From the NCBI GenBank assembly GCA_017513625.1, contig JAFXEW010000022.1:1-40470 (forward strand): 40,470 nt of DNA. Direction: 5' to 3'. Made by a program: the position numbers and the translations under genes. Under the pieces are notes generated by a model that saw only the letters and a program-made list of their open reading frames with translations, was not told the origin of the DNA and did not search any database. This document shows positions 15,462 to 26,008 of this stretch, piece by piece. The stretch is from Lachnospiraceae bacterium. GTDB lineage: Bacteria; Bacillota; Clostridia; Lachnospirales; Lachnospiraceae. The first letter of the stretch is position 1. Each line of letters opens with the position of its first letter.

Positions 15462-16517
15462 CTATTCTATATTCTGATGAATTGCCTCATGCATTTCCAT
15501 AATGGCATTCCCCAGACCTTCTGCCAGTTTTTCCTGATATTCCTCACGATAGAGCAAAATACCTTCTGTAGCATGATTAACCGTTCCCAAACTGACTCGC
15601 GCTGAGGGCACCTGTAACCGGCTCAATATATCATCCTGTCCGGAAGGAAAGAGTCCTCTTGCCTTGTTCCGGGAAGAGATTGTAATATTTCTCGCAAGTG
15701 CATCTGCCACCTCAATATTACCATAACCGCTGATATAATAAACATCATTATAATACCCGGATATACCATACTGTTCACCGGTAGCGCGCTCTGCATCCAG
15801 TGCAATAAAGAAATCAGCCTCCACATCCTTTACCAAACGTACGATCATGTCATCAGTAACTTCACTATCTGACAAATCTGTAAAATATAACTTAATCCCT
15901 TCGTGCGAAAACTGTTGACTGAGCTTACGTCCCACTCCCTGCACAATTTGTTCCTGCTCCATAGTATCCCCTGTAGTATCTACAACCACAATAGTCCGGT
16001 ACAATTCCGCAGGCCGTTGAAAAACCACTGTCAAAACACCATTGTTTAAAGTCGTCTTATATTCATATACGCCGTCCGTACGAATTTTAAGAGTCAGACC
16101 ATCACTACGTCTTTCCAGTTCTCCACCTTTAACAGGAGTAATATTTCCCCTCACTTCCGGGTTTTGGTAATATACCGCATCTGCTTTTTTAATAGTTATC
16201 CACAATTCTCTATGGGCATATCTGTTCTCCACTATTACAGTATCGGCCGCGATCTCTTCTCCCAAGGGTATCATGAATCGCCCCTCCTCAGCCTCATCAT
16301 TGCTAAGGATCAACGGACTTATTTCACATCCTGCCAAGGCCTCACTACCCTCATTTTCTATTCCAGGCTGAGTATCCGAGATTTCAATTGTCTTTTGTGA
16401 TGCATACACCAGCATAAAGCCCACGGAGCCAAGCAATATTAACAGCTGAAACGTAAGGATTCCCAACCGTGATGCCAGGGAATGCTTTCCTTTCTCTAAA
16501 GCCTTAATTCTATTCAT
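15462..16517 (-). CDS. Amidase_3-like protein with degenerate active site
   Basis: 351 residues: a short basic N terminus, one membrane anchor (about 17-37), a beta-rich linker (about 60-165), then a C-terminal domain (about 170-351) that follows the layout of N-acetylmuramoyl-L-alanine amidases. The expected zinc/catalytic residues are missing: the usual D-x-G-H-G-G block reads VVVDTTGDT, and the usual S-x-H-A-N reads IALDAERA. The late segment VPSARVSLGTVNHATEGILL still resembles the block before the catalytic Glu, which is not seen. I read it as an externally exposed, probably inactive relative that may bind or regulate. Its start overlaps the methyltransferase stop (ATGAATAG), so the genes are coupled. 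Confidence 0.7.
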   Translation of the reverse strand: MNRIKALEKGKHSLASRLGILTFQLLILLGSVGFMLVYASQKTIEISDTQPGIENEGSEALAGCEISPLILSNDEAEEGRFMIPLGEEIAADTVIVENRYAHRELWITIKKADAVYYQNPEVRGNITPVKGGELERRSDGLTLKIRTDGVYEYKTTLNNGVLTVVFQRPAELYRTIVVVDTTGDTMEQEQIVQGVGRKLSQQFSHEGIKLYFTDLSDSEVTDDMIVRLVKDVEADFFIALDAERATGEQYGISGYYNDVYYISGYGNIEVADALARNITISSRNKARGLFPSGQDDILSRLQVPSARVSLGTVNHATEGILLYREEYQEKLAEGLGNAIMEMHEAIHQNIE

Positions 16518-17673
16518 CCTTTACATCCTTGTTCCGCTTAGGAGGCTTTGGCCCCATAAACTGATAAAAATAAGTCTTCATCATACCGTTGTATATTTTT
16601 CTGTTCTTATCTGCCTTACGTCCGATATCGTTCTCAGCCTGCTCATATGCAGTAATCAGGTACATACTCCAGGCATCCAGCTGCTTATAACGTTCGCCAA
16701 TAATTTTATACAGCGCAGGCATCTCGGACTTGTCCTGTAAACGCTCACCATAGGGCGGATTGGAAATAATAAACCCATACTTCTTAGGATGGCTGAGCTG
16801 CTCCACTCCTCTTCGTTGAAAATGAATAAGCTTATCCACGCCGGCTAACCGTGCATTTTCCCTTGAAATATTAATCATTTCATTGTCTATATCGTAGCCC
16901 TGAATATCCACGTTGACCTTTAAATCAACCATTTCACGTGCCTCATCCATTGCATCATACCAATTCCGTTTACCTACAATATGCTCCCAGTTCTCCGCCG
17001 TAAAGCTGCGATTCATGCCCGGTGCAATATTCGCAGCCATCATGGCTGCCTCTATAGGAATCGTACCACTGCCGCAAAACGGATCCACTAAAATACGGTC
17101 CCCATGCCAAGGTGTAAGCATAATCAGCCCTGCCGCCAGATTCTCTGCTATAGGTGCCTTTGCGGTAAGCTTACGGTATCCCCGCTTATGTAATGAATCA
17201 CCTGTAGTATCCAGACCCACAGTGACCTCATCCTTCATCAGAAAAACCCTGATCGGAAAGCTTTCGCCATCCTCTGCAAACCAACTAATTCCATACACGC
17301 CTTTCAGACGCTCCACCATGGCTTTTTTCATAATGGACTGTATATCGGACGGACTGAACAACTTAGACTTCACACTGGCCGCTTTTGCGACCCAGAACTT
17401 ACCATCCGAAGGAATATAATCCTCCCAAGGCAGATTTTTAGTTCCCTGAAACAATTCTTCAAAGGTTTCTGCATGAAAGCATCCGATTTTAATTAAAATA
17501 CGTTCTGCAGTACGCAAGAAAATATTCGCCCTGCACAATGCTTCCTCATCCCCGTAAAAGGTAATTCTGCCGTCTTCCACACAGGTCACATCATAACCCA
17601 AATCTATAATCTCTCTTTTTAAAACAGATTCCATGCCAAAATGACAGGGAGCAATCAACTCAAATCTTCTCAT
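16510..17673 (-). CDS. THUMP-domain RNA (guanine-N2) methyltransferase, RlmL/YpsC-type
   Basis: 387 residues. The N-terminal THUMP/ferredoxin-like RNA-binding part (about 1-155) is followed by a Rossmann-fold methyltransferase. SAM-binding and catalytic motifs are clear: DPFCGSGTIPIEAAMMA near 200 and the N6/N2-type catalytic FIISNPPYGERL near 298. The family methylates 23S rRNA (the E. coli RlmL N-terminal module makes m2G2445; the Firmicutes form lacks the RlmK half). It is the first gene of a four-gene operon with a promoter at 17705-17733, and the start follows AAAAGGATGAGAA. Confidence 0.93.
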   Translation of the reverse strand: MRRFELIAPCHFGMESVLKREIIDLGYDVTCVEDGRITFYGDEEALCRANIFLRTAERILIKIGCFHAETFEELFQGTKNLPWEDYIPSDGKFWVAKAASVKSKLFSPSDIQSIMKKAMVERLKGVYGISWFAEDGESFPIRVFLMKDEVTVGLDTTGDSLHKRGYRKLTAKAPIAENLAAGLIMLTPWHGDRILVDPFCGSGTIPIEAAMMAANIAPGMNRSFTAENWEHIVGKRNWYDAMDEAREMVDLKVNVDIQGYDIDNEMINISRENARLAGVDKLIHFQRRGVEQLSHPKKYGFIISNPPYGERLQDKSEMPALYKIIGERYKQLDAWSMYLITAYEQAENDIGRKADKNRKIYNGMMKTYFYQFMGPKPPKRNKDVKDE

Positions 17674-17704
17674 TTCTCATCCTTTTCCTATTTACAATAT
17701 TCTA

Positions 17705-17733
17705 AGTATACCTTTTTTTACTACATCTGTAAA
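17705..17733 (-). promoter_or_regulatory. Sigma-A promoter of the methyltransferase-rdgB operon
   Basis: On the minus strand TTTACA (17728-17733), 17 bases, TATACT (17705-17710), 31 bases before the start codon. Confidence 0.6.
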
Positions 17734-17786
17734 TAATACACACAAAAAAGACACCTTTAACTTAATAGCATAGTGGCTTTTAAAAT

Positions 17787-17842
17787 TTGTTGTTTTTCGT
17801 GTAAGAACGAAAATATTTGTTGCATTTTCGTGCAATCGAAAA
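17787..17842 (+). repeat. Two tandem copies of a hyphenated palindrome upstream of the small RNA
   Basis: Copy A (17787-17813) reads TTGTTG, then TTTTTCGTGTAAGAACGAAAA. Copy B (17817-17842) reads TTGTTG, then CATTTTCGTGCAATCGAAAA. Each contains TTTTCG...CGAAAA as an inverted repeat. They lie 64-119 bases upstream of the -35 box of the small RNA promoter and could be sites for a second regulator. They do not belong to any ORF. Confidence 0.5.
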
Positions 17843-17905
17843 CTTTATCGTACCATTGCACAGATTCAGGCGCAAATAATTTCTCACTTTCAGTCGTATT
17901 ATCAA

Positions 17906-17934
17906 TTGTCAACTTAAACGTTTTAGTTTATAAT
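17906..17934 (+). promoter_or_regulatory. Sigma-A promoter with a LacI-type operator in its spacer
   Basis: TTGTCA (17906-17911), 17 bases, TATAAT (17929-17934). The spacer holds CTTAAACGTTTTAG (17913-17926), an almost perfect 14-base palindrome centred on CG. The same core lies in the spacer of the GH94 promoter at 23463-23491. No coding region follows on this strand. Confidence 0.75.
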
Positions 17935-17940
17935 AAAAAA

Positions 17941-18035
17941 TGTAAGTAGACACCCCCTTACCGTTCTATTTACACCCTTATATAATTATACTCCCCTCAA
18001 GAGCAATCGGTCCCCTCCGGTTGCTCTTGCTTTAT
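17941..18035 (+). ncRNA. Candidate C-rich regulatory small RNA under LacI-type control
   Basis: The transcript expected from the promoter at 17906-17934 is about 95 nt and has no ORF with a ribosome binding site. Its 5' part can form GTAAG-loop-CTTAC with CACCCC in the loop. Single-stranded stretches then carry ACACCC and CTCCCCTC. It ends in a terminator hairpin AAGAGCAATCGG/CCGGTTGCTCTT (17999-18029) with TCCCCT in the loop, followed by GCTTTATTT. Four C-rich motifs exposed in loops resemble Firmicutes small RNAs that pair with GGAGG ribosome binding sites. The T tract fits plus-strand termination better than minus. Inference; no homologue recognised. Confidence 0.55.
17999..18035 (+). terminator. 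Terminator hairpin of the small RNA, convergent with the DUF1700 gene
   Basis: AAGAGCAATCGG (17999-18010), loop TCCCCT, CCGGTTGCTCTT (18017-18028), then GCTTTATTT. On the minus strand the tail is GAGGGG with no T run. Confidence 0.6.
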
Positions 18036-18541
18036 TTCAGCCAATCTTTGAATAACTTAGTGATGAATACTACTATCATGATAGGAAACAGAATCGGCAT
18101 CAGAAAAGATAAAACAGAAAATACAAGACTAATAATTCCAAAGAATATCAACAGGCCGATTAATACCTTTAACCAGCCGGGCATAGTGACTTTAGGTTTG
18201 CTTTCGGACCGGTAACCCGTATAAGAAGTACTCCGGGCATAACGATATGTCTGCGGCCCCTCTCCGTCCGCACCGGAATAAGCTCCGCCGGATTCTGCCC
18301 CATAGCCGGAGCCAACATAGTTTCCACGTCTATTATCTCCATATCCGGAGGCATCTATAATAGTCTTGGCAATAAGTCTGGGGTCACCAAGCATCTGCAT
18401 GATTTCATATTCTGACCTGCCCCTGTTCATCTCAGAACGGATATAGTTCTCATAATATCTCACATGCTCTGCCACACCGGCACTATCCAGCTGACCATTC
18501 AGATACATTCTTAACTTGTCTATAAACTCCTGCTTACTCAT
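18032..18541 (-). CDS. DUF1700/HAAS-domain membrane protein
   Basis: 169 residues. The N-terminal MSKQEFIDKLRMYLNG segment with the DPRLIAKTIIDA motif (residues 1-63) matches the HAAS/DUF1700 signalling helix domain. A Gly/Ser/Tyr-rich low-complexity linker (about 64-115) follows, then one long or two short membrane segments (about 122-160) ending in a Lys-rich tail. Family members are often encoded next to a PadR-type regulator and act as its sensor or anti-regulator; no such gene is adjacent, so the role is open. AAGGA lies eight bases before the ATG. It is convergent with the small RNA candidate. Confidence 0.75.
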   Translation of the reverse strand: MSKQEFIDKLRMYLNGQLDSAGVAEHVRYYENYIRSEMNRGRSEYEIMQMLGDPRLIAKTIIDASGYGDNRRGNYVGSGYGAESGGAYSGADGEGPQTYRYARSTSYTGYRSESKPKVTMPGWLKVLIGLLIFFGIISLVFSVLSFLMPILFPIMIVVFITKLFKDWLK

Positions 18542-22261: not shown

Positions 22262-23278
22262 TCAATTGTCAATCCTTCTTACCGTTTCTCCTTCATAAAC
22301 TGTTCCCCCGACCACAACAGGCTCTACAATGGTGGTTTTAGGACGTTCAATAATGGAGATTAACTTCTTTGCGGCTTCACAGCCCATGCATTCCGTGTCC
22401 TGCTTCAATGTAGTCAGTCTGGGGGCAATATGTCGGCCCACGCGAATGCCGTCGTACCCTGCCACGGACACATCCTCAGGTATCCTGAGGCCTCTGGCCC
22501 TTATGGCATTCATACCTCCGTAACATGCAAAGTCATCGGGATATAAAATGCATGTGGGCGGATCATTTAAGTCAAGCAACCGGTTAGTTGCATCGTAAGC
22601 CGCAACGGTATCCCTGTATGCAGCTTCCTTTATGTATTCATCAGGAATTATCAACCCCAGATTCTCCACTGTCCTGAAAAAAGATCCCAATCTCTTTTGG
22701 GTAACTGCCGAATCAACACCATGTATGTATGCAATTTTACGGTGCCCCATACTATATACATATCTGACAAGTTCTTCCATCCCCCTTATATTGTCGGAGA
22801 TAATAGAAATTCTTTTTTCAAAAGTATGGTCAATGGTAACTACGGGAATATCACTCTGAATCAGTTCCATTACCTGGGGATCATAAAAATCCACACAGGC
22901 AATCATCACGCCGTCAAAGCCTCTGTACTTGCAATGATCCAGAACGGACAGCTGGTTACGGCCTTTCTTACTGCTGTTTATAAATGTAATATCATAACCG
23001 CTTTCTTCCACCGTACGTTTAAAACTATCCAATACATATGAAAAATAATCGTGGGTCAAACCGCTTCTCGCCTCATCCACAAACAAAACCCCAATATTAT
23101 AAGTGCGGTTAGTCTTCAGTGCCCTGGCCTGTGCATTGGGATAATATCCCATTTCCTTGGCCTTTCTGCGGATCATTACTTTCGTGTCTTCCCCCACATC
23201 GGAATGATCGTTCAAAGCCTTACTTACGGTAGCAATACTTACTCCGCAAGCGGCTGCAATATCTTTCATGGAAACCAT
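22262..23278 (-). CDS. LacI-family transcriptional regulator of the cellobiose locus
   Basis: 338 residues. The LacI-type helix-turn-helix and hinge are at the N terminus: MKDIAAACGVSIATVSKALN with the hinge YYPNAQARALKT (about 47-58). A periplasmic-binding-protein-like sugar-sensing domain (about 62-330) follows. It should bind CG-centred palindromes and be released by a sugar. It lies between the importer genes (same strand) and the divergent GH94 gene. Candidate sites with a CTTAA(A/T)CGTTT core lie at its own transcription start (23308-23321), twice before GH94, and within the small RNA promoter. The ATG follows GGAGGAGTTTC. Confidence 0.93.
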   Translation of the reverse strand: MVSMKDIAAACGVSIATVSKALNDHSDVGEDTKVMIRRKAKEMGYYPNAQARALKTNRTYNIGVLFVDEARSGLTHDYFSYVLDSFKRTVEESGYDITFINSSKKGRNQLSVLDHCKYRGFDGVMIACVDFYDPQVMELIQSDIPVVTIDHTFEKRISIISDNIRGMEELVRYVYSMGHRKIAYIHGVDSAVTQKRLGSFFRTVENLGLIIPDEYIKEAAYRDTVAAYDATNRLLDLNDPPTCILYPDDFACYGGMNAIRARGLRIPEDVSVAGYDGIRVGRHIAPRLTTLKQDTECMGCEAAKKLISIIERPKTTIVEPVVVGGTVYEGETVRRIDN

Positions 23279-23462: not shown

Positions 23463-23491
23463 TTGAAATAACTTAAACGTTTCGATATAAT
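23463..23491 (+). promoter_or_regulatory. GH94 promoter with operator in its spacer
   Basis: TTGAAA (23463-23468), 17 bases, TATAAT (23486-23491). The spacer contains CTTAAACGTTTCGA (23472-23485), so a bound repressor would block RNA polymerase directly. Confidence 0.75.
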
Positions 23492-23536: not shown

Positions 23537-23550
23537 CTTAAACGTTTAAC
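23537..23550. promoter_or_regulatory. Second LacI-type operator ahead of GH94
   Basis: CTTAAACGTTTAAC is a 14-base palindrome with one mismatch. Its centre is 65 bases from the promoter operator, a spacing that could allow looping or a roadblock. The ribosome binding site AAAGGAG starts eight bases later. Confidence 0.65.
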
Positions 23551-23572: not shown

Positions 23573-26008
23573 ATGAAATTCGGTTTTTTTGATGATGTGA
23601 ACAAAGAATATGTCATCAACACTCCCAAGACTCCCCTGCCCTGGATTAATTATCTGGGGTGCAACGAGTTCTTCAGTCTGATTTCCAACACCTGCGGCGG
23701 CTATACCTTCTATAAAGATGCAAAACTGCTGCGACTGACCCGTTACCGCTACAACAATGTTCCTACCGATATGGGAGGTAAATACTTCTATATCAAAGAC
23801 GGCGACACTGCCTGGAATCCCGGCTGGATGCCCATGCAGACAGAACTTGACTCTTATGAATGCCGTCACGGTATCGGATACAGTAAGTTCTCCGCATCCA
23901 AAAATGAGGTCAGTGCAGAGCTGCTTACCTTTGTACCCATGAATGACAATTGTGAGGTAACATCCGTCACCATCAAAAATAACAGCAATAATACCAAGAA
24001 TATAAAACTTTTCTCTTATGTGGAATGGTGTTTGTGGAATGCTGATGACGACATGAAAAATTTCCAGCGTAATCTCAGCATCGGCGAAGTTGAAATCGAC
24101 GGTTCCGCTATTTACCACAAAACCGAATACCGTGAACGCCGCAATCATTACGGCGTATATTCCGTAAATGTACCCGTGGACGGCTTTGATACCGAAAGAG
24201 ATGCTTTTCTGGGTCATTACAGAAGCGCTTCCAATCCTGAAGCAGTAGAAAACGGCAGTTGCACAAACTCCGTAGCCAGCGGCTGGTCGCCCATTGCCAC
24301 ACATCAGATTAATATCAGTCTGGCTCCCGGGGAAGAAAAGAATTTTATATTTGTTCTCGCATACATAGAAAATGAACAGGAAGAAAAGTGGGAAGCGCCG
24401 CATATTATAAACAAGACCAAAGCACGTGCATTACTGTCCCGCTATGAAACCGCAGAGGACGTGGCAAAAGCTTTTGCCGGTCTGCAGGAATATTGGAACA
24501 ACCTTTTATCCAAATATCAGGTAAAGTCCGGAGATGACAAGGTAAACCGTATGGTTAATATCTGGAATCAGTATCAGTGTATGGTTACCTTTAATATGTC
24601 CCGTTCCGCTTCCTATTACGAATCCGGTATCGGCCGCGGCATGGGCTTCCGTGACTCCTGTCAGGATTTACTGGGCTTTGTCCATTTGATTCCTGACCGC
24701 GCAAGAGAACGAATCATCGATATCGCCTCCACACAGTTTGAGGACGGCAGCGCTTATCATCAGTACCAGCCCCTGACCAAGAAGGGCAATTCCGATATCG
24801 GAAGCGGCTTTAACGATGACCCCCTGTGGCTCATCGCAGGCACAAGCGCATATATCCGCGAAACAGGCGATATGTCCATTCTTTCCCAAATGGTTCCCTT
24901 TGACAATGACGAGAGCAAAGCTACTCCCCTTATGAACCATTTGAAGCGTTCCTTTGATTATATAGTAAACCATAAAGGTCCTCACAAATTGCCTTTAATC
25001 GGACGTGCGGACTGGAATGACTGTCTGAACCTGAACTGCTTCTCCGAGCATCCCGGTGAATCCTTCCAGACCTTCGGTCCCAGTGAAGGCCCTGTGGCAG
25101 AGTCCGTGTTTATCGCAGGTATGTTTGTAAAATACGGTGAAGAATATGCGCAACTTTGCGACTTGCTGGGTGATACTACCGAAGCTGAATATGCCCGCAA
25201 GGAAGTGGCGGTAATGTACGACACCATTCTGGAAAGCGGCTGGGACGGCGACTGGTTCATCCGCGCTTACGACGCCTTCAGCCAAAAGATTGGTTCCAAA
25301 GAATGTGAAGAAGGCCAGATATATATCGAGCCGCAGGGCTTCTGTGTACTGGCCGGTGTAGGTGTGAAGGAAGGTCTGGCTGAAAAAGCCCTTGACTCTG
25401 TTAAAGAAAAGCTGGATACCAAGTACGGCGTAATGATTCTCCAGCCTGCTTATACACGCTACCATCTGGAGCTTGGTGAAGTTTCTTCCTATCCTCCCGG
25501 ATACAAGGAAAATGCAGGAATCTTCTGCCACAACAATCCCTGGGTATCCATTGCGGAAACTGTTATCGGCAGAGGTGACCGTGCTTTTGAAATATACAAA
25601 AAGACCTGTCCTGCTTATATCGAAGATATCAGTGAGATTCATCGCACGGAACCCTATGTATACTCACAGATGGTTGCCGGCGCCGATGCTCCCAGACACG
25701 GTGAAGCCAAAAACAGCTGGCTTACCGGTACTGCCGCATGGACCTTCGTAAATGTATCACAGTATATCCTTGGTATTTATCCCACCCATAACGGTCTGCA
25801 GGTAAATCCCTGCCTCCCTGACGGATTCGGTGATTTTACCGTTGAAAGGGAATACCGTGGATGCAAATACCATATCAGCGTAGTGAATCCCGCCAATGTA
25901 CAAAAGGGTGTGACAAAAATGTCTGTGGACGGACAGGAAATTCCCGGTAATATTATTCCTTATGACGCATCCAAAAAGGACTGCAATGTAGTCATAACAA
26001 TGGGTTAA
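23573..26008 (+). CDS. Cellobiose phosphorylase, GH94
   Basis: An 811-residue intracellular GH94 enzyme that converts cellobiose and phosphate to glucose 1-phosphate and glucose, saving ATP. The length equals that of clostridial cellobiose phosphorylases, shorter than cellodextrin phosphorylases. Family features in order: the N-terminal beta-sandwich start [15 protein letters not shown], the substrate-site [14 protein letters not shown] (about 346-359), the [12 protein letters not shown] block with the catalytic Asp (480-483 region), and a C-terminal beta domain ending [14 protein letters not shown]. Paired with the divergent importer and LacI-family regulator. A strong AAAGGAG site, two operators and a terminator frame it. 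Activity on cellobiose rather than another beta-glucobiose is by similarity. Confidence 0.93.

Follow-up and report, generated by a model that had tools for sequence, protein, structure and literature searches.

The window analysed here (the whole stretch of 40,470 nucleotides from a Lachnospiraceae bacterium) carries, at 17906–18037 of its plus strand, what looks like a complete, stand-alone small RNA gene with its own promoter and a terminator-like hairpin. The sequences document its gene anatomy, conservation, covariation and synteny, an operator shared with a cellobiose phosphorylase gene, and different promoter boxes in its relatives. From these data, we lean, by a little, towards a trans-acting RNA that blocks translation by pairing its C-rich segments with G-rich ribosome binding sites and that is controlled, in the window species, by a LacI-family protein; transcription, LacI binding, the inducer, mRNA pairing and translational repression are the steps that we infer.

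Anatomy of the small RNA gene

The features of the window that are relevant to this RNA are the following (coordinates, strand, description):

16510–17673, minus strand: gene for a RlmL-like rRNA methyltransferase (Pfam UPF0020, RlmL_1st, THUMP), divergent neighbour of the RNA
17885–17897, no strand: place of the GTAC box of relatives, none being recognisable in the window (alignment with six relatives; box score below zero)
17906–17934, plus strand: sigma-70-type promoter (TTGTCA at 17906–17911, spacer of 17 nt, TATAAT at 17929–17934)
17911–17928, no strand: LacI-type operator AACTTAAACGTTTTAGTT in the promoter spacer (core CTTAAACGTTTTAG at 17913–17926)
17941–18037, plus strand: small RNA of about 97 nt (putative start 7 nt past the −10 box)
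17941–17974, plus strand: 5′ hairpin with a 10-bp stem (17941–17950 / 17965–17974) and the loop CACCCCCTTACCGT (predicted fold and covariation)
17972–17999, plus strand: largely unpaired linear core ACACCCTTATATAATTATACTCCCCTCA, which contains two C-rich motifs (predicted fold and conservation)
17998–18037, plus strand: intrinsic-terminator-like hairpin of 13 bp with the loop TCCCCT and the tail CTTTATTT
18032–18541, minus strand: gene for a HAAS-domain membrane protein (Pfam HAAS), convergent neighbour of the RNA
22262–23278, minus strand: gene for a LacI-family regulator, likely a repressor (Pfam LacI, Peripla_BP_3)
23472–23482, no strand: LacI-type operator core, 3 nt upstream of the TATAAT that precedes the GH94 gene
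23537–23547, no strand: further LacI-type operator core, 25 nt upstream of the start codon of the GH94 gene
23573–26008, plus strand: gene for a GH94 cellobiose phosphorylase (Pfam GH94; closest PDB entry 3qde, a cellobiose phosphorylase, over the full length)

The initial annotation had described a consensus promoter with an operator in its spacer, followed by an ORF-free stretch, four C-rich motifs and a terminator hairpin with a T tract, and each of these elements was recovered. The promoter (TTGTCA-17-TATAAT) agrees with the consensus at 11 of 12 letters, and the operator core is part of a palindrome of 18 bp in which a single pair is mismatched (by eye). No plus-strand ORF of at least 20 amino acids is present inside 17950–18020 (one ends at 17949 and another begins at 18021). 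The C-rich motifs are located in the 5′ loop (17951–17957), at the stem foot (17973–17977), in an unpaired stretch (17991–17998) and in the terminator loop (18011–18016); in the predicted fold, the 5′ loop, CACCC, CTCCCCTC in the open stretch and the terminator loop would all be exposed. The terminator stem comprises 7 G-C pairs among its 13 bp and is followed by a modest T tract (6 T in 10 nt). The minimum free energy calculated for 17941–18037 is −29.6 kcal/mol, against −9.8 ± 2.4 kcal/mol for 200 shuffled sequences (z = −8.2).

The same promoter layout is found in the 53 loci identified in the genus of the window, with a 17-nt spacing in 51 of them (16–18 nt being permitted) and an exact TATAAT in 44. 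The −35 boxes of the relatives are poorer: 49 of these 53 promoters agree with TTGACA at three or four positions, the window and three others at five.

Distribution and conservation of the RNA

A plain DNA similarity search, independent of covariance models, detected the RNA in 4 of 40 relatives, flanked in all four by the same two neighbours, rlmL and HAAS. The covariance search in relatives that the initial annotation had proposed uncovered a conserved family. In the window's genus, for which 138 genomes were searched, the model R1, built from five sequences, matches 52 genomes (the window's own included) and the model R2, built from 79 sequences, 54; at the level of the family, R2 matches 193 of 397 sampled genomes across 165 of 334 genera. 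At the level of the order, R2 matches 85 of 392 genomes, 20 of them outside Lachnospiraceae, including one probably spurious match (L225 in genome G593); copy number rises to three per genome in one family. Matches in a class-wide sample are confined to 12 of 391 genomes, seven in Lachnospiraceae and five, weaker (31–39 bits), outside the order, indicating that the RNA is mainly a feature of Lachnospirales. The window itself, which belongs to both training sets, scores 74.8 bits with R1 and 61.3 bits with R2, the models matching at 17940–17999. Lachnospiraceae are major fermenters of fibre in the gut, and an RNA present in nearly half of the sampled genomes of this family provides a concrete handle on post-transcriptional control in these bacteria.

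The comparisons below draw on 133 loci, which are not independent, since several records figure both among the named loci and among the unnamed loci of the genus (e.g., L060 and L015), and which hold 114 distinct 50-mers around the end of the core. Among them, 79 were taken in where the window scored with R1, near-identical loci being omitted. The 80 named loci are 80 of 115 stretches, chosen with a search pattern of which the core is a part; core invariance among them is thus partly there by construction.

In an alignment of 76 distinct sequences, the 5′ stem has 739 cells, of which 96.1% are standard pairs. We counted 119 double-change cells, against 22.7 after shuffling (none of 500 shuffles reached 119) and at most 14 when the partner strand was slid, a count that leans upward, as the alignment was fitted to this structure and kinship among the sequences inflates the number. 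Judged from the alignment, the 5′ hairpin covaries as an RNA, with strong compensatory change. A lone chance structure, considered as a candidate, is ruled out by cross-species conservation together with these compensatory changes. The linear core that follows is composed of ACCC(C)TTAT, an AU-rich stretch and then TATACTCCCCTC, and is nearly invariant also outside Lachnospiraceae, in loci that were found by a model containing the core. All but one of 113 distinct sequences have a hairpin of at least 10 bp behind the core (112 of 113); the 10 nt that come after it contain at least five T in 84 of the 113 and fewer than five in 29. The window presents both the covarying 5′ stem and the core ACCC(C)TTAT...TATACTCCCCTC that characterise this new family.

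The view that the locus is a small RNA gene of the C-rich kind gained from this comparison, as relatives repeat the spacing of the promoter, the two hairpins and the C-rich open core. Loss of the promoter, the operator and the C-rich loops in close relatives had been set beforehand as the outcome that would speak against the initial annotation. The promoter and the C-rich core are kept but the operator is not, and the loops are intermediate, with a CCC run in the 5′ part of 32 and in the terminator part of 35 of the 53 genus loci (simple count). C-richness is thus kept in the open core and only partly in the two loops.

Among the 133 loci, many of which are short or stop at contig ends, rlmL is divergent at most two ORFs upstream of the RNA in 98, HAAS is convergent at most two ORFs downstream in 78 and both arrangements are combined in 67. 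The convergent orientation means that the RNA is no HAAS leader in those 78 loci. Four loci of Lachnospiraceae, mostly from ruminants (L059, L095, L129 and L134), have the RNA inverted within the HAAS–rlmL gap. Homologues of the window proteins were searched in the 80 named loci, which extend up to 8 kb, and RlmL-like proteins were found in 68, HAAS proteins in 55, GH94 proteins in 19 and LacI proteins in 21, where one match is weak and two cover only part of the protein.

Several loci depart from this arrangement. Four genomes contain a second RNA copy beside other genes: this second, different copy (L062, L108, L110 and L125) adjoins a gene for an exchanger-like membrane protein (by eye) and a gene for a large membrane protein, and the same genomes also carry a copy before rlmL. 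One genome from another family of the order contains three core copies with differing 5′ parts (L216, L217 and L218). In L002, L003, L004 and L005, a gene for a short Asn/Gln/Ser-rich protein, which the window does not have, is located between the RNA and rlmL. It is preceded by CTCCTG and, about 12–25 nt later, by CAGGAGG (by eye), so that a hairpin could sequester its ribosome binding site.

The RNA is not present throughout the genus. We checked 12 genus genomes in which R1 finds nothing (G052 among them is weakly matched by R2), of which 10 had rlmL; a start-motif script found nothing in four of the latter and the region was inspected in six. The RNA was not found in the gap between rlmL and the HAAS-like end in five of these six, the sixth having another neighbour. 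The RNA is thus lost from the rlmL–HAAS gap in some genus members and is dispensable there in at least five. One RNA-less genus member retains a GTAC box in its rlmL gap.

Promoter boxes in the window and in relatives

The 13-mer AACTTAAACGTTT occurs twice in the window (0.02 expected), in the RNA promoter and before the GH94 gene, and CTTAAACGTTT occurs twice upstream of this gene, whose start lies 5.5 kb from the RNA. The initial annotation had proposed that the same operator controls GH94, and relatives agree with it: sites with up to three mismatches to CTTAAACGTTTAAG are present within 200 nt upstream of all 19 GH94 genes located near the RNA, against a mean of 0.59 and a maximum of two in 100 shuffled sets, so that, as far as sequence can tell, this is very probably the GH94 operator. 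The distant relative L120 carries the 14-mer operator of the window letter for letter. The spacer site at 17913–17926 has one mismatch to CTTAAACGTTTAAG, within the three allowed for the regulon. Since all 19 GH94 genes have a matching site, the spacer operator is probably the GH94-linked LacI site; it is thus an operator of the GH94 locus, and its position makes the linked LacI protein its probable partner.

CTTAAACGTTT is present at seven sites in the incomplete genome of the window species, three of them within 5.7 kb in the window; of the other four, one falls within an ORF and another, which shares the 16-mer, is distant from GH94. In the same genome (contig C43, L182 near 1500), the 16-mer ACTTAAACGTTTTAGT is located in the gap before a PHP-type gene (by eye), which is a possible further member of the GH94-linked regulon.

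Control of the RNA by the operator is a prediction for the window promoter and is not supported as a general rule. The operator is present in one of 131 RNA promoters, that of the window (shuffled sets give more, with a mean of 3.95 in 20 sets), and we rejected it as a family-wide property. Its use in this one species is argued from a single promoter and from the similarity to the GH94 sites. By contrast, TGGTACTTTGGTACTA or a near variant (GTAC-N4-GTAC) is present just upstream of the −35 box in at least 99 of the 131 RNA loci; two of the 133 loci have no upstream sequence, and L066, L068 and L079 were scored negative yet show the box by eye. The −10 region reads GTACTATA or GTACTACA in 23 of the 53 genus loci, as if a second, weaker GTAC box overlapped it.

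When five genomes were searched for GTAC boxes with at most one mismatch, four of them yielded one site each, three at the RNA and one elsewhere. In genome G006 (L174 near 1502–1516), a GTAC-N4-GTAC palindrome is located in the short gap before a GGDEF-type gene, a hint that this gene may be another one under the GTAC-box regulator.

The window promoter aligns at the same place as those of the nearest relatives compared, whose RlmL proteins are up to 87% identical, and in this alignment the LacI site of the window stands where the relatives have the GTACTATAAT region. We considered 17885–17897 as a decayed GTAC box and dropped this candidate, since only 5 of 13 letters agree with L008 in the alignment.

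The operator in one and the GTAC box in at least 99 of 131 promoters indicate that the RNA is old and its sugar control new. The simplest history would be that the GTAC boxes were lost and that the LacI operator arose in the same promoter. More generally, we tentatively suggest, giving the idea somewhat less than even weight, that this Lachnospirales-wide C-rich RNA, whose near-invariant linear core is about 30 nt long, serves gene control in the order as a permanent output module with an exchangeable input: a GTAC-box regulator in most lineages and here, after loss of the boxes, the repressor of the cellobiose phosphorylase, whose newly arisen operator would have made the RNA a cellobiose-responsive translational regulator. 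One RNA under two unrelated switches in related species amounts to a natural experiment, which makes small RNA regulatory rewiring directly testable.

Proposed action and comparison with known C-rich RNAs

In the mechanism that we propose, the small RNA 17941–18037 would be made from its own promoter and end at its own hairpin. Its exposed C-rich segments would pair, without Hfq, with the G-rich ribosome binding sites of several mRNAs and thereby block their translation. The LacI-family protein encoded at the cellobiose phosphorylase locus would, in the window species, bind the spacer operator and shut the promoter; cellobiose or a related sugar would free the operator, and the RNA, off until the GH94 inducer comes, would be produced along with the phosphorylase. 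In most relatives, another regulator would act via the GTAC-N4-GTAC box.

Hfq was not found in any of the eight genus genomes searched, with a control search that was positive in 5 of 14 known genomes. The exposed C-rich segments and this absence of Hfq in eight of eight genomes point to the mode of action of Firmicutes in which a C-rich RNA pairs with mRNAs. The initial annotation had also suggested that the RNA rewires the translation of other genes, and no such target emerged. A duplex scan of 32 start regions of the window gave no z value below −2 (the lowest was −1.92), a weak scan, as it used plain energies without accessibility and mononucleotide-shuffled controls. A long-complement pattern at start sites, searched in 138 genomes, has matches in 103 of them, RNA carriers and non-carriers alike, giving no target signal. 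The AGGGGAGTAT-N-ATG sites of this search occur among carriers and non-carriers, and none is found in the window's own genome.

Other readings of the locus can be weighed against this one. The RNA could be real and regulatory while the spacer palindrome serves another LacI-family protein (e.g., a CcpA-like global regulator) or none, a rather improbable alternative that we nevertheless take seriously. LacI-family operators resemble one another, the spacer operator is restricted to one of the 131 RNA promoters, and the genome contains further CTTAAACGTTT sites, including the one whose 16-mer lies far from GH94; however, the spacer site matches the operator that precedes GH94 in all 19 related loci, which come from several genera, 5.5 kb separate the RNA from the GH94 locus, and a repressor bound to the site, which fills the spacer, would block the promoter. 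We also consider it unlikely that the RNA binds a protein or another RNA rather than mRNA starts, with the near-invariant AU-rich stretch between the C-rich motifs as the binding site. Such a site would explain why the linear core, including its AU-rich middle, is nearly the same over several families, seemingly beyond the needs of Shine-Dalgarno pairing, while the C-rich loops vary between genus loci, and neither target scan gave an mRNA signal; yet it is through unpaired C-rich segments that known RNAs of Firmicutes contact their mRNAs, and Hfq was not found in the eight genomes. Finally, it is scarcely credible that no separate RNA is transcribed here and that the element just forms the 3′ end of HAAS or acts at the DNA level. 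It abuts the HAAS stop codon (18032), and its hairpin could terminate HAAS transcription from the opposite side, but no T run follows the hairpin on the minus strand, a promoter-like pair of boxes stands ahead of the RNA in the genus loci, and the covariation of the 5′ hairpin is that of an RNA. The four loci in which the RNA is inverted in the gap, with HAAS and rlmL both on its strand, and the extra copies in some genomes also argue against this reading.

A further alternative is that the RNA is a Lachnospiraceae counterpart of FsrA, i.e., an iron-sparing C-rich RNA, which we regard as very unlikely. FsrA of Bacillus is repressed by Fur and induced by iron limitation. Among Rfam families it is the closest in anatomy: the FsrA model matches end to end, with 24.5–34.5 bits, in five of eight loci, mostly from ruminants, and the L095 alignment pairs the 5′ hairpin, a single-stranded CAACCCCU-type stretch and a terminator hairpin with a CCCC loop. 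Membership in FsrA (RF02273) was rejected, as the gathering threshold is 80 bits and the best score, 34.5 bits, comes from distant relatives only, the window giving no match even at E values up to 10; in a separate Rfam scan of six loci, L120 alone matched. Architecture and C-richness may yield such scores by convergence. The promoter elements differ too, the RNA promoters bearing a GTAC box or a LacI operator, whereas Fur control and the Fbp chaperones are features of FsrA itself.

At the RNA, every Rfam family stays below its threshold in the window, and in 14 loci of relatives, scanned whole or in part, only tRNAs pass theirs. The below-threshold matches of AgrB and Trp_leader on L218 were rejected, as they seem by eye to be due to a resemblance of terminators. 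Text searches of open-licence papers gave no characterised trans-acting small RNA in Lachnospiraceae among the matches listed, and the searches found the core and the GTAC box in no relevant paper; we thus call the family undescribed in the sense that the open-licence literature searched contained no description of it.

Its nearest functional parallels are RNAs of Bacillus and Staphylococcus. FsrA, IsrR, RoxS and RsaI are reported to act on mRNAs via C-rich regions, several of them at the Shine-Dalgarno sequence, which FsrA binds through a C-rich motif. CcpA, which controls one of these RNAs, is itself a LacI-family protein. RoxS/RsaE of Bacillus and Staphylococcus shares with the window RNA its C-rich regions, which meet mRNAs, and has a role in central metabolism (PMC8216469). 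It differs in sequence, structure and neighbours, and Rex control is its own feature; membership was rejected, with no Rfam match in the window at the gathering threshold, nor at E values up to 10 in 17680–18060. In the staphylococcal IsrR, several C-rich regions lie single-stranded within loops and linkers (PMC9410917), a likeness to the window RNA. Fur control and three stem-loops plus a terminator are features of this staphylococcal RNA, which was compared with the window RNA through Rfam scans alone. RsaI/RsaOG of Staphylococcus uses a C-rich region for its mRNA targets, with Shine-Dalgarno pairing, and is repressed by CcpA (PMC9266662, PMC8216469). Membership in this family was rejected as well (gathering threshold 50 bits), with no match in the window and 23 bits on the relative L218. 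With its own promoter and terminator and its C-rich segments predicted to be exposed, the window RNA shows, at the level of sequence and predicted fold, these two traits of the Firmicutes C-rich RNAs, a functional kind and not a homology family, and RsaI offers a precedent for the sugar control of such an RNA, with the difference that CcpA represses RsaI when glucose is plentiful, whereas the window RNA would be released by the sugar of its local repressor.
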